Origin: a virus
Virus record (IMG/VR): IMGVR_UViG_3300009093_000042
Coordinates: 64,001 to 101,913 of that record
Strand: one strand, 5' to 3'
Length of the DNA stretch: 37,913 nt
A model generated the notes under the pieces. That model made no database searches. It was not told the DNA's origin and saw only the letters and a program-made list of their open reading frames with translations. Below, piece by piece: positions 1,378-35,842 of the stretch. The stretch's first letter is position 1. Each line of letters begins with the position of its first letter. A program made the translations under genes and the position numbers.

Positions 1378-3329
1378 TAGCTCATCCTTTCAGGATAAAA
1401 CTGGCGATAGGGTCCTAGCGGTTCAGCGGGTTTTTCAGACTCATTGAGCGGTTGCGCGCCGTTCATCGAGACCGTGGTGCCGGTGGCCTGGTTGTTCTCA
1501 CCGGTGTCAGCGCGCTTCATGTGCAGCGGGTGCTGGCCGTAAGATGAAACGACGAGGTCAAAGTCTTTGAGCTGCCGTTTGATGTGCAGGCTTTCCTGCT
1601 TGAACATGTTTTCGTACATCCGGCGTTGAGCGCGGGTGTGCGCCACATCTCCAGCGCCTTTGATGGACGACTTCAATTCCTCGACGAGCTTCACCAGCGA
1701 ACCGTCCTGGCGCACTTTGTCTTCCAGCTCGCGCAGAATCTTGTAGGTGTACGGAGCGGGACGACGATTTTGTAAACTTTCTGTGGCTGGTTCCTGGATG
1801 TCGGTCGGGAGCGCGGTGATGAACATCGTCACCACGTCATCCGGCAAGTGCATGTAGCGTTTGAAGATGGTCTCGATCCAGGCTTCACGCGGCAGGTTGT
1901 ACTTCTGCATCACGTCGGCCAGGATGTCGAGGACTTCGGCGTGCTGGCGCAGCATCTCCAGTTTCATCTGGTCTTCCAGTGAGCCGATGGGTGCCATGCA
2001 GGCGCGGATGTCCATCTCGCGGATGTCTTTGCCTTTGAGCACGGCGTGGAAATATCCGAGCCACGTGTACGTGTTGATGATGGGAGCGCGAATGCTTTTG
2101 ATCTTTCGCAGGAACCGCATGTCCTGGGCGAGAAGGGCTTTGCCGCTCATGGCCTGTTCGCCGCCAGCGCTGCCCGTCTTGGCTCCGAACCACGATCTCG
2201 GCATACCGATGATCGAGTAAAAGAGGTCCGTCAATAGTTCGATGTCGTAAACATCAGGAACGTTTTGCGTGCCCTGCATCTTCTCGATGGCGTGCTCGAA
2301 ACCCGTGGGTTTGGCGACCCAGAGAATGGTGTCGAGCGACCACGCGTTGTAAAACGACTGGAATCCGGCTGGATCGGTCAGCTCGTTCGTGAGGCCGGTG
2401 CTGCCCTGGTTGGCGAGGCCGAAGGAAAGCTTGCTGCGCAGGGTCTGCTTCCAGCGCTGGACTGTTTTCATTTGGTCCATGGGCGTCTGGTCCTTCGTGT
2501 CGATGTTGATCACGTAGCGGTCCGGCTGCACCTGGGCGCGATGAACGACCATCTGGTCAATGGCCAGGCGCAGCTTTTTGTAGATGCCCTGCGCTTCGTC
2601 AAAGATCGGTTCGCCGTGTTCGCTGATGCGCAAGCGATACATGCGGCGGAAGTGGAGCATGTCCCAGGGATACCAAAGTTCTTCCACGTTCTGGCCGTCG
2701 CTGATGGCGACGCGTTCGATGGGAGTTTTGTTGTCCGGGTGGACGAAGGCGGCTTCCTTGCTTGGTTTGTGGCCGCTCCAGCGGTAGCCGACGCACTTGC
2801 GGTTGCGCTCCAGCCAGTAGCGGCGCACGTCCATGGGATGCACGAAGGACATGCCCATGACGCCTTCGCCGGGCGCGTACTCCAGCTTTTCGAAATGGTT
2901 GCCGAGCGCGGCCAGGTAATAGACCTGGGAATAAATCAGTTCCTCGCTGTTGAGTTCGAGGAGCATTCCGTTGAGATCATCTTCGAAGTCGCGGTCGTTG
3001 CACTGGAACCAGATTTTGGCCGGGCTGTTCTGGTCGGTCTGCGTAGCTTCGTCAACAATTTCTACTAGCGCCGCCGCCATCAGGTCCCATCCGGCCATTT
3101 CGTCCCAGAGCTGGAGCATGGCGTCGAAAGTGACCGGTCGCCGCATGTAGGCGTTGAACCTTGACCACACATCCGGGTTCGCAACACGGCCAGCGTCCTG
3201 GAAGTCCTTGAAAAGCTCTTGGTCCGCCGTAGGGGTTCCGGCACGCGGGACGAGACTTCCGGTCGGCTGGCCGGATGTGCCGATGAGGCCCATGTACTTT
3301 AGCAGGGACGTGGCTGTAGTGTTTGCCAT
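1377..3329 (-). CDS. gp20: Portal vertex protein, gp20-like
   Basis: This 650-aa protein has the order and motifs of T4-type portals: an N-terminal segment on the target lattice (RPVTFDAMLQLWDEMAGWDL), a central core (MDVRRYWLERNRKCVGYRW, LWYPWDMLHFRRMYRL), the helical YKKLRLAIDQMVVHRAQVQP segment, and a conserved C-terminal core (DLFYSIIGMPRSWFG, then a long helix MRFLRKIKSIRAPIINTY). T4 gp20 (524 aa) forms the dodecameric ring for packaging and head-tail joining; this one is longer, mainly at the C-terminus, which is charged and Gln/Asn-rich. It is the first gene of its minus-strand run. Upstream is a TAGTTA element 9 nt before the ATG and no Shine-Dalgarno sequence. Confidence 0.9.
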   Translation of the reverse strand: MANTTATSLLKYMGLIGTSGQPTGSLVPRAGTPTADQELFKDFQDAGRVANPDVWSRFNAYMRRPVTFDAMLQLWDEMAGWDLMAAALVEIVDEATQTDQNSPAKIWFQCNDRDFEDDLNGMLLELNSEELIYSQVYYLAALGNHFEKLEYAPGEGVMGMSFVHPMDVRRYWLERNRKCVGYRWSGHKPSKEAAFVHPDNKTPIERVAISDGQNVEELWYPWDMLHFRRMYRLRISEHGEPIFDEAQGIYKKLRLAIDQMVVHRAQVQPDRYVINIDTKDQTPMDQMKTVQRWKQTLRSKLSFGLANQGSTGLTNELTDPAGFQSFYNAWSLDTILWVAKPTGFEHAIEKMQGTQNVPDVYDIELLTDLFYSIIGMPRSWFGAKTGSAGGEQAMSGKALLAQDMRFLRKIKSIRAPIINTYTWLGYFHAVLKGKDIREMDIRACMAPIGSLEDQMKLEMLRQHAEVLDILADVMQKYNLPREAWIETIFKRYMHLPDDVVTMFITALPTDIQEPATESLQNRRPAPYTYKILRELEDKVRQDGSLVKLVEELKSSIKGAGDVAHTRAQRRMYENMFKQESLHIKRQLKDFDLVVSSYGQHPLHMKRADTGENNQATGTTVSMNGAQPLNESEKPAEPLGPYRQFYPERMS

Positions 3330-7811: not shown

Positions 7812-7986
7812 AGACGGCGTCGAGGACTTTGCGCTGCCATTCCAGACAGCGCGGACAAGTGACGTGGGCGCAGATGGAGGAACTTTTCACGAAATTGATG
7901 TCCTCACCACAGGCAATTTTATGCCCTGGGCCGTCAGCATCTGCGCCCCGGTCGCGAACTTTTTGATGGATGATCTCGGTGCTCAC
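7774..7986 (-). CDS. Small putative zinc-binding protein (70 aa)
   Basis: It starts with GTG overlapping the stop of the co-chaperonin gene (GTGA). Residues 22-47 hold His22, Cys26, Cys39, Cys44 and Cys47 in the order H-x3-C-G ... C-x4-C-x2-C (GHKIACGEDI, then ICAHVTCPRCLEW). This is a layout seen in many small phage zinc-ribbon-like proteins. Binding partner unknown. The last 38 nt overlap the end of the convergent plus-strand gene. Coupling to the co-chaperonin suggests co-expression but not necessarily shared function. Confidence 0.65.
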   Translation of the reverse strand: MSTEIIHQKVRDRGADADGPGHKIACGEDINFVKSSSICAHVTCPRCLEWQRKVLDAVFTPLPEKSGEAA

Positions 7987-8579
7987 TTCAGGGTCAGCGC
8001 GCCGTCGATGAATAATTGGTCCACGAAACAGAGTTCATCGTTGTCGATGACGATGGGGTTGACGCGACCACGGTGAGGAAAGACTTCCTGGCCAGCGTAC
8101 AGGTCGAGCTGAACGTCTTTGCCCATCTGCACCACACTGAAATGGGTGCTCTCCTTTTTGGCTTCTTCAGCAGTGTCAGGCACGATGATGATTTGATCCT
8201 TGGCTTTGCGCACCGTGGGGCGCAGCAGCGCGAAACGACCAGCAATGTGGAAATTTTCCAGCGCGATCACGTTTTTGTCGAGTTTGGCGATCACGTCGGC
8301 CACGTTCAAAAAGATGTGGATGACACCGCCGATTTCATGTGCAATCAATCCGGCTTGGTGCTGCGGGAGCTGGAACAGGACAATCTGTCCAGGCTGAAAT
8401 TCTTCCAGGGTGGATTCCCGGCCCTCGTAGCCGAATTTATCCAGACTTCCAGTGCATACGACTTCGGCGAGATCGTAGAGCTTGGACCGGCTGGCGGGCA
8501 GTTCGAGGCCGCCGCGCAGCTTGGCTTTTTCTTCGAGGCGTTTGACGGCTATTTTACCAGGAGCAAGTTTCAATTTCAT
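7983..8579 (-). CDS. Tandem GroES-like co-chaperonin (two domains in one chain)
   Basis: Residues 1-100 match GroES end to end: KLAPGKIAVKRLEEKAKLRG (first strands and mobile-loop start), GGLELP at the place of the GGIVL chaperonin-binding tip, FQPGQIVLFQ for the 'vGDiVif' strand, and a final strand GVIHIFLNVADVIAKLD for 'eevliMsesDIlAiv'. Residues about 110-198 repeat the same order: RFALLRP, a loop with hydrophobic IIIVP followed by TAEEAKKES, HFSVVQMGKDVQ, LYAGQEVFPHRG, then DELCFVDQLFIDGAL. GroES is about 97 aa and forms a heptamer that caps GroEL; T4 gp31 replaces it to fold gp23. A two-domain chain resembles plastid Cpn20. A TGTTCT box lies 7 nt before the ATG. Confidence 0.75.
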   Translation of the reverse strand: MKLKLAPGKIAVKRLEEKAKLRGGLELPASRSKLYDLAEVVCTGSLDKFGYEGRESTLEEFQPGQIVLFQLPQHQAGLIAHEIGGVIHIFLNVADVIAKLDKNVIALENFHIAGRFALLRPTVRKAKDQIIIVPDTAEEAKKESTHFSVVQMGKDVQLDLYAGQEVFPHRGRVNPIVIDNDELCFVDQLFIDGALTLK

Positions 8580-8601: not shown

Positions 8602-8611
8602 TTGTTTACAA
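8602..8611. repeat. TTGTTTACAA element
   Basis: Perfect 10-mer in the gap between the co-chaperonin and primase genes; other perfect copies lie at 19877, 25961, 29904 and 30571 (either orientation). Confidence 0.6.
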
Positions 8612-9673
8612 TTTATTTCCAGAGTGGGCTGCCACTCTCCGGCCATGGTCAGTTTCCGCGAGGTTGATTTTTACTTTTCTGGCTGTGGGTTTTGACCGGT
8701 TGTGGACCGCCGTGAGTCCGGCGATAACGTCGTCGTTTGCGTCGTTTGTTGTCCGAGCAGTACCATCAGGATTGATTCCCGGTGGCATGGCGGCCACGGT
8801 CATCGGCATGATCGAGTTGAGATTCAGAGCGGTTTCTTCGGCCAGGTGGGTCGAGTCGCTGTCGAACAACAGGCACCACTCTTTGACGTGCTTGTAGCGC
8901 AACATTTTGAACACCTGTGAGCGGGTGATGAAGTGGGTAAAGACGCATATCGGCATTGCGTATTCCAGGAGGTTTCCTTCACGCAGTTTCCGTTTCAGCG
9001 ACAGGTAGTTGAGGATGGATTCGACGATGATCACCAGTTCGATGGATGGGGTGCGCAGAGCGTCGAGGCCATAAATCCAGTAGCTGGCTCCGTACGGCAC
9101 GATTTTCTTGCTTGGGAATTTTTTGGTCTTGTCGAACCCTTCATCTGAGTACGTGCGTCCCTGGTAGTAAACCGTTCGCGGGCCTTCGCGCACCGGGAAG
9201 ATGCAGAATGGTTCCCACTCTCCTTCGCGGGTGAAACCGGCTCCGGCCTCCTCCAGGTCTTCGATGCCCAGGTGCTTGCGCTCAGCCATGTTTTTGCAGA
9301 ACTTCCAGTAACAGCTCTTTCGGTTTTCGATTAGCGGTAGGAACCCTGAAGGCAGTGGGACCTCTTGGATCGGAGTTAGAGCTTTTTCCGGCTTTTCCGC
9401 GAGGATTGTCCGCAGCTCGTCTGGCTCCAGGATGGCATTGTCTTCGAGGTCAATACCTAACAGGCGGAACAGGCTTTTTACGTGCCTCGGTTGAGTAGTT
9501 CTGCTGCAACGCCAGCAGTTTGTCCGCTGTGTCTTGAGGTTGATGGAGCGGTTACCGGTCAGGTCGCCACAGCCCGGCACCGGGCAGATGATCATCAATT
9601 CTTCACTGGTGGACCTCTCTTTGACCACTTGGAAGTTTGACGAAATTTCGATTTTAAGCCGGTCGGGACTCAT
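8606..9673 (-). CDS. DNA primase (zinc-binding and TOPRIM domains)
   Basis: The N-terminus carries a zinc site, Cys30-x4-Cys35 and Cys53-x2-Cys56 (ICPVPGCGDL ... TNCWRCS), typical of DnaG-type primases and used to read template DNA. A TOPRIM fold follows: the acidic Glu218 in VIIVESILNYLS and the Asp271-Ser-Asp273 pair in LLFDSDST. The family makes RNA primers for lagging-strand synthesis. At 355 aa it is compact and lacks a helicase domain, as in stand-alone phage primases; a helicase would be encoded elsewhere. A CGTTCT box precedes the ATG by 8 nt, in a divergent gap of 16 nt shared with the gene at 9690. Confidence 0.85.
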   Translation of the reverse strand: MSPDRLKIEISSNFQVVKERSTSEELMIICPVPGCGDLTGNRSINLKTQRTNCWRCSRTTQPRHVKSLFRLLGIDLEDNAILEPDELRTILAEKPEKALTPIQEVPLPSGFLPLIENRKSCYWKFCKNMAERKHLGIEDLEEAGAGFTREGEWEPFCIFPVREGPRTVYYQGRTYSDEGFDKTKKFPSKKIVPYGASYWIYGLDALRTPSIELVIIVESILNYLSLKRKLREGNLLEYAMPICVFTHFITRSQVFKMLRYKHVKEWCLLFDSDSTHLAEETALNLNSIMPMTVAAMPPGINPDGTARTTNDANDDVIAGLTAVHNRSKPTARKVKINLAETDHGRRVAAHSGNKL

Positions 9674-34387: not shown

Positions 34388-35842
34388 TTAGCCGATCACC
34401 GAGCCGAAGCTCGTCGGGCTGTTCAGAATCAGACCACGGCAGTACATCTTGCTGTTGATCATCTTCCGGGCGAACGAGGTCGCGAAACCGCGTTGGTGGA
34501 TGAAGTCAGGCAGCACCACGTCCGGCGTAGTGTAGAGCTTCTGGTATTCCGCGAGCACGTAGCCGGTCGTGAGGAATTGGTCGCCCTTGTGACCAATCAG
34601 CCACTCATTCACCGGATAGTGCGGATCGGCAAACACCTTCTTGTTGCCGAGGTCGCCGATGTAGGTGATGCCCTGCATCTGCGTGCGGTTGTTGCGCGAA
34701 ACGAACTGCGGCAGCGTGGCAACCACGGTTGCGGCCTGGAGACCCAAGAGCATCCAGTTACCGGCCACCATGTTGGTCGCGCCGAAGATGAAGTTCGAGG
34801 CCGTTTCAAAGGCGTCGATGATGGAGAACTTGTGGGTCTGGTAGTTCACCGAGGGCGGAGCCACGGCATCCCACACGACGAAGCCAGCGTCCGCACGGGC
34901 GCGCAAGTCGAAGATCACCTGGCGGTGCTTCTGATACGTGAGCGCATTCGTGAGGGCGTTGAGCAGAACGCTCTCGGCCTTGATGTTGTACATCGCCTGG
35001 AGGTTCTGATCCGCTTCTTCGGACCACAGAGTCTTCAGCTTCATCACCTTCGCCGTTACCGGCGTGGAGCTGAGCTTCATCTCGTAGTCCATGATGTTCA
35101 GGTTGCCTTCCGCGTTGAACGCGTAGGTGACGCTGTATGTCGCCGTCGCGCTGACACCAGTGACGGTGAATGCGCCGGTAACATAGTTCACCGTGCCGCC
35201 TGCGATGGCACCGGAGGGAATCAGGTTGCCGTTGCTGTCGTCCGTGGTCACGTCCGAGCCGACCGTCACGGTGACGGTACCAGCGCGAATCGGGAACCAT
35301 TCCAGGTTGCCAGCGTTGCCGGACAAGGCACCGGTCTCGTCCTGGACGAGTTCGTCGGCGTCATCATCGCGGTCCACGGCACCCTGGAGGGCGCGCCACA
35401 TCTGCGCACCAGCGGGCGTGCGGCCTTTGCGGCGACCAGTCACGATGTCCATGTAAACGATCTGGCTCACCGGGCCAGCCATGGGCTGGAGGGCGACGAG
35501 CTGGTCGATCACATCGTTTTCGCTCATGTTCGCGATAATAGGAAAAATCCATTTATCGAAAGTTCCGAGCGAGGACGTGCGGGTCACTTCGTCCAGTTGG
35601 CCAAACCGCGCACGGCAGTTTTCGAGCATGATCGCGGCGTAAGCGCGTTTGTGCTCCGGCATGTGTTGGACGAATTCCTTCCAGCCTCTTGCTTCCCAGA
35701 GGCCCTTGGGGTTCTTTTCGGTAATTCCGACAGGCGTTTCTGCGAGCTTATAGCCCCATTCCAGCGTCTCCGTGAAACGAGCAATATGTCCGCCGTTGGT
35801 CGCCAGCATCGGCCTACCGGTCTGTGAGTCTTGAATAACCAT
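34388..35842 (-). CDS. gp23: Major capsid protein, gp23-like (HK97 fold)
   Basis: The 484-aa product matches the gp23 pattern: FDKWIFPIIANMSENDVIDQ, then LVALQPMAGPVSQIVYMDIV, a beta-rich inserted region (about 187-245, with TVNYVTGAFTVTG and YSVTYAFNAEGN), LWSEEADQNLQAMYNIKAES, and the C-terminal domain with NEWLIGHKGDQFLTTGYVLA and a conserved RGFATSFARKMINSKMYCRG. Candidate protease sites of the [IL]-x-E type near the N-terminus are Ile40-Thr-Glu42 and Leu83-Asp-Glu85; neither is proven. A terminator follows the stop. Upstream is a CAA-repeat leader. It is encoded next to the prohead protease, as in T4. Confidence 0.92.
   Translation of the reverse strand: MVIQDSQTGRPMLATNGGHIARFTETLEWGYKLAETPVGITEKNPKGLWEARGWKEFVQHMPEHKRAYAAIMLENCRARFGQLDEVTRTSSLGTFDKWIFPIIANMSENDVIDQLVALQPMAGPVSQIVYMDIVTGRRKGRTPAGAQMWRALQGAVDRDDDADELVQDETGALSGNAGNLEWFPIRAGTVTVTVGSDVTTDDSNGNLIPSGAIAGGTVNYVTGAFTVTGVSATATYSVTYAFNAEGNLNIMDYEMKLSSTPVTAKVMKLKTLWSEEADQNLQAMYNIKAESVLLNALTNALTYQKHRQVIFDLRARADAGFVVWDAVAPPSVNYQTHKFSIIDAFETASNFIFGATNMVAGNWMLLGLQAATVVATLPQFVSRNNRTQMQGITYIGDLGNKKVFADPHYPVNEWLIGHKGDQFLTTGYVLAEYQKLYTTPDVVLPDFIHQRGFATSFARKMINSKMYCRGLILNSPTSFGSVIG

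Follow-up and report, generated by a model that had tools for sequence, protein, structure and literature searches.

Bacterial GroES (Cpn10) is a single-domain protein that assembles into a heptamer, and co-chaperonins comparable to the one reported here have been described in T4-type phages and in plastids. T4 gp31 and RB49 CocO are phage-encoded GroES substitutes of T4-type phages with gp23. T4 gp31 replaces GroES as a heptamer of a single-domain protein with longer loops; its roof loops are reported to be absent and its opening to be wider, and the chamber of the gp31-GroEL complex to be slightly larger (PMC6318259). Plastid Cpn20 (Cpn21, Cpn23; chloroplast and apicoplast) instead joins two GroES-type domains head to tail and has been reported to carry a mobile loop and a roof in both of them (PMC3542282).

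Here we describe a phage gene that combines aspects of these systems. It lies in a window of 37,913 nucleotides, which is the whole stretch of DNA analysed and corresponds to bases 64001-101913 of the 101,913-base virus record IMGVR_UViG_3300009093_000042. The encoded protein of 198 residues consists of two GroES/Cpn10 domains in tandem. As in Cpn20, the domains are arranged head to tail and each has a mobile loop; unlike Cpn20, the protein is phage-encoded and its second domain lacks a roof. It shares with gp31 and CocO its origin in a T4-type phage with gp23, but it has two domains where the gp31 family has a single one, and only domain 2 resembles gp31 in being roofless, whereas a roof is present in domain 1. 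The fold and the mobile loop are shared with bacterial GroES, as is the roof in the case of domain 1, while GroES has one domain and the phage protein two.

A phage gene encodes two GroES-type domains in tandem

The preliminary description of this DNA, made from its letters alone, had placed a double GroES gene at positions 7983-8579. These coordinates are correct, with the gene on the minus strand. The features of the gene are as follows.

7983..8579, minus strand: tandem GroES/Cpn10 co-chaperonin gene, open reading frame of 198 aa (ATG at 8579, TGA ending at 7983)
8280..8579, minus strand: domain 1, GroES-like with roof loop (residues 1-100; hhalign, Pfam)
8478..8534, minus strand: mobile loop of domain 1 (residues 16-34; alignments), with the hydrophobic tip GGLELP at 8496-8513
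8388..8450, minus strand: roof-loop span of domain 1 (residues 44-64, 21 aa; alignment)
7986..8279, minus strand: domain 2, GroES-like without roof loop (residues 101-198; hhalign, AlphaFold, Foldseek)
8151..8213, minus strand: mobile loop of domain 2 (residues 123-143; alignment, model), with the hydrophobic tip IIIVP at 8178-8192
8091..8123, minus strand: position in domain 2 at which the roof loop is missing (residues 153-163, 11 aa; alignment)

Pfam Cpn10 (PF00166) matches the whole protein in two stretches (E = 6.1e-7), in agreement with PHROG 3188 (co-chaperonin GroES). Residues 1-100 and 101-198 by themselves match Pfam Cpn10 with E-values of 0.0024 and 0.016, and because these single-protein half matches are weak, relatives of the protein were sought. 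All ten members of the resulting alignment match Pfam Cpn10. When the two halves of this ten-member family profile are compared separately with three GroES sequences in hhalign, as the preliminary description had proposed, both match: half 1 at 98.9% (E = 1.7e-17) and half 2 at 95.5% (E = 1.4e-8, score 48.7). The highest half 2 score against GroES among 100 column shuffles is 17.8, and the reversed profile reaches 20.7. The second half alone exceeds the curated Pfam cut-off of 21.1 bits in the relatives L062 (30.3) and L054 (23.4); in some relatives the match of domain 2 to Pfam Cpn10 is weak or absent. A match of the second half to BamB has an E-value of about 1 and is not significant, and an hhalign comparison with gp31 was uninformative, as even GroES has no match to gp31 in this setting.

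The profiles of the two domains hardly match each other (4%, hhalign). This rules out a recent internal duplication, and the fusion is therefore either old or built from two different GroES genes.

AlphaFold predictions, computed for single chains, gave a full-length model with a pLDDT of 84.7 and a pTM of 0.81, in which the sole segment below 50 pLDDT is residues 125-133, inside the mobile loop of domain 2. Foldseek returned one PDB match with E ≤ 1e-3 for this model, namely chloroplast Cpn20 (7ekq_R), which aligns over the full length (E = 9.8e-6, TM 0.61, about 19% identity in the structural alignment). Plastid Cpn20 is thus the best full-length structural match, and it is also the best profile match (7ekq_Q and R). 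Half 2 folded alone reaches a pLDDT of 82.3 and a pTM of 0.72, and its top 35 PDB matches are exclusively GroES, Hsp10, gp31, and plastid co-chaperonin chains. Pfam, hhalign with its shuffled controls, and AlphaFold/Foldseek therefore agree on two GroES domains in one phage protein, as had been claimed for this gene, with the β-barrel fold of the Cpn10/GroES family (PF00166) in each half. A second half without a GroES fold, which the preliminary description had named as the outcome that would speak against it, was looked for and is contradicted by profiles, AlphaFold, and Foldseek alike.

Upstream of the tandem gene we noticed the motif GTTCT[A/T]. Of 38 chosen gene starts in the window, 7 have it in the 40 bases that precede them (0.52 expected; P = 1.3e-6, a post hoc value, the motif having been picked after it was seen at this gene). 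The seven starts lie at 3329(-), 4646(+), 5948(+), 8579(-), 9673(-), 11816(+), and 20575(-), and most relatives of the tandem gene also carry the motif a short way upstream. It is possibly a promoter or leader element. Shine-Dalgarno-like 4-mers are not enriched upstream of the same 38 genes (4/38 versus 13% at random), so translation in the window may start without the usual ribosome-binding site.

The second domain has a mobile loop and no roof loop

Each half carries its own mobile loop with a hydrophobic tip, as the preliminary description had read from GGLELP and IIIVP, and throughout the ten-member alignment both tips keep this type, hydrophobic residues followed by a proline. The halves differ chiefly in the roof, a point on which that description did not remark. 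Counted between two conserved glycine positions, E. coli GroES has a roof-loop span of 19 residues and T4 gp31 one of 12. Among the ten aligned members, this span covers 17-23 residues in domain 1 and always 11 in domain 2; the roof loop is kept in domain 1 and absent from domain 2 in every one of them. In the distant L042 protein, which stands outside the aligned ten, domain 1 seemingly also lacks a roof, as read from its sequence.

A roofless second domain might be a degenerate one, a spacer or ring-closing copy beside a domain 1 that alone works as the GroEL-binding lid, so that the protein behaves as a bulky single-domain lid. The weaker Pfam match of domain 2, with its loss in some relatives, would fit such decay, as would the poor match between the two domain profiles. 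However, the two domains show similar conservation within the family (mean column identity of 46% for domain 2 and 50% for domain 1), the loop tip of domain 2 persists in ten out of ten aligned members, and gp31 works without any roof (PMC6318259). We therefore consider it unlikely that domain 2 is degenerate.

The phage encodes a gp23-type capsid protein

The window contains genes for a portal protein, a gp23-type major head protein, a head maturation protease, a tail sheath, and a tail tube, together with baseplate genes and SbcC/SbcD-like genes. By these genes, the phage is a distant T4-like myophage, and its lineage is one of uncultured phages. The gp23-like capsid protein that the preliminary description had assumed for it is present, with a match to phrog_138.

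34388..35842, minus strand: major capsid protein of the gp23 type, 484 aa, probable client of the tandem protein (match to phrog_138 major head protein with E = 2.3e-25)

No close capsid protein was found among deposited phages, where the best matches (Bacillus phage SP-15 and Listeria phage LIS04) are about 30% identical. Among deposited phages with a co-chaperonin, these two are the nearest by gp23, and both encode the co-chaperonin in short single-domain frames. The annotation of SP-15 joins its capsid gene (L078:117-2634) from two pieces that flank a putative endonuclease gene, a break that resembles an intron or a similar insertion. A 595-kb uncultured phage (L083, LR756511.1) also encodes a gp23-type capsid protein, of 26% identity, and has one Cpn10 match in a short frame at 310252-310500.

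A Cpn60/GroEL gene was not found in the phage records, which are fragments and possibly incomplete, and the partner of the tandem protein is therefore presumably the host chaperonin. Nor did these possibly incomplete records yield a second Cpn10 locus or a separate single-domain GroES, so any single-domain partner would be host GroES. Presumably, then, the protein acts with host GroEL, perhaps together with host GroES.

A proposed two-domain cap for the host chaperonin

We propose that the two-domain protein is probably a lid that closes the chamber of host GroEL during folding of the gp23-type capsid protein. The fold, the loops, the roof difference, and the conservation of the gene are observed; we infer that the protein forms rings and binds GroEL, that it can share a ring with host GroES, and that gp23 is its client. 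Both flexible loops of each chain, with their hydrophobic tips, are of the type that docks GroES on GroEL, and, as the preliminary description suggested, the two might differ in their preference for GroEL-type rings. Several tandem chains could assemble into a ring with six to eight domains, either by themselves or together with host GroES; seven would result from three tandems and one single host GroES. The tandem ring would take the place of the host lid on the GroEL chamber, and since about half of the roof hairpins are missing, its dome may be wider or partly open, as has been proposed for T4 gp31. Inside this chamber, the 484-residue capsid protein would fold.

The preliminary description pointed out that fused pairs do not simply match sevenfold symmetry. 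This question has already been addressed for plastid Cpn20 (7EKQ; PMC5780408; PMC3542282). The chloroplast cap in 7EKQ consists of one Cpn11, one Cpn23, and two Cpn20 chains, which amounts to 1+2+2x2 = 7 domains, and concatemers of 6 or 8 GroES domains function with GroEL (PMC5780408). More tentatively, the phage cap could be a half-and-half structure with a lopsided, partly open chamber, in which three tandems and one host GroES let roofed and roofless domains alternate in an arrangement tuned to the capsid protein; we regard this refinement as rather doubtful.

The position of the gene counts against a role in capsid folding, as it sits with a primase-like gene and away from the capsid genes.

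8606..9673, minus strand: primase-like gene, directly upstream of the tandem gene; resembles annotated phage primases

Its place beside a replication gene and outside the head-gene cluster, as well as the failure to find a phage GroEL, would suit a protein that takes over host GroEL, interfering with it or remodelling it, for example by entering and altering host GroES rings, and that folds no capsid protein. Yet T4 gp31 is also encoded among non-head genes and still serves gp23, and the GroES fold and both loop tips are retained here as in an active lid. Such a takeover appears improbable to us, and we favour the capping of host GroEL during folding of the gp23-type protein.

The fusion is conserved beside the primase-like gene

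Single-protein scans of viral contigs with the co-chaperonin or with the tail-sheath protein found no relatives, and gp23 was therefore used to reach the lineage; an 8-member alignment was too divergent to serve as a scan query. The gp23 search drew 33 related loci. Searching the longer records, together with additional scans, showed a homologous two-domain gene in 13 virus records, which represent 11 distinct proteins. The most distant of these shares about 21% identity with the window protein, and the matched frame has no internal stop in any of the 13. Relatives with the same fusion, for which the preliminary description had advised a search, thus exist. The tandem gene adjoins the primase-like gene in each of the 12 records that hold this primase. 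Given the 13 records and this constant neighbour, the fusion is not accidental. Where related records have no tandem gene (G003, G004, G005, G007-G010), the primase is absent too, so the stretch is probably missing from these fragments or has been replaced. Each single-protein match of the second half is weak by itself, but a frameshift, a misassembly, or chance similarity is scarcely credible as the source of the two-domain reading, since 13 records share the same open frame and neither shuffled nor reversed controls reproduce the half 2 match.

Outside this set, close-subfamily relatives were not found in GTDB genomes, and the window protein has no tblastn match among deposited phages. Two of its relatives gave partial tblastn matches only, several of them to ordinary GroES genes.

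Tandem-length co-chaperonins in deposited phages

A search of full-text literature, with limited coverage of subscription journals, found no paper on tandem co-chaperonins in phages. Tandem-length proteins have nevertheless been deposited: gp096 of Cellulophaga phage phi18:3 (200 aa, annotated as chaperonin cpn10) and three kin resemble the present protein in length. The second half of gp096 matches Pfam Cpn10 (E = 8.5e-8), its first half is similar to domain 1 (78% in hhalign), and there is a two-domain structural match (S0A356). The profile of the present family has no match to gp096. The settings of the two genes also differ. The podovirus-type phage phi18:3 carries its co-chaperonin gene beside the terminase, whereas the present gene lies beside a primase, and phi18:3 encodes a separate single-domain GroES (gp080) as well, whereas the possibly incomplete records of the present lineage show the tandem form only. 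In phi18:3, the single-domain GroES gene is at L073:31108-31362 and the 200-aa co-chaperonin gene at L073:41458-42060. Flavobacterium phage elemo and the MW202828 phage each have a single-domain Cpn10 match and a weakly similar gene of 180 or 187 aa (loci L076:3001-3543 and L077:2896-3459); that these genes are tandems is only suggested.

The tandem phage lid is accordingly less new than the preliminary description implied. Tandem GroES in plastids and tandem-length Cpn10 proteins in phi18:3 and its three kin are already known; the present lineage is set apart by the tandem-only form seen in its records, the roofless second domain paired with a roofed first one, and the occurrence in T4-like phages. 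These findings add a T4-like phage lineage to the plastids as a source of tandem GroES lids and provide a natural fusion of roofed and roofless lid domains. Two questions thereby become directly accessible to experiment: in what way lids with an even number of domains function on sevenfold GroEL, and whether it is the loss of the roof that lets phage lids take large capsid proteins.
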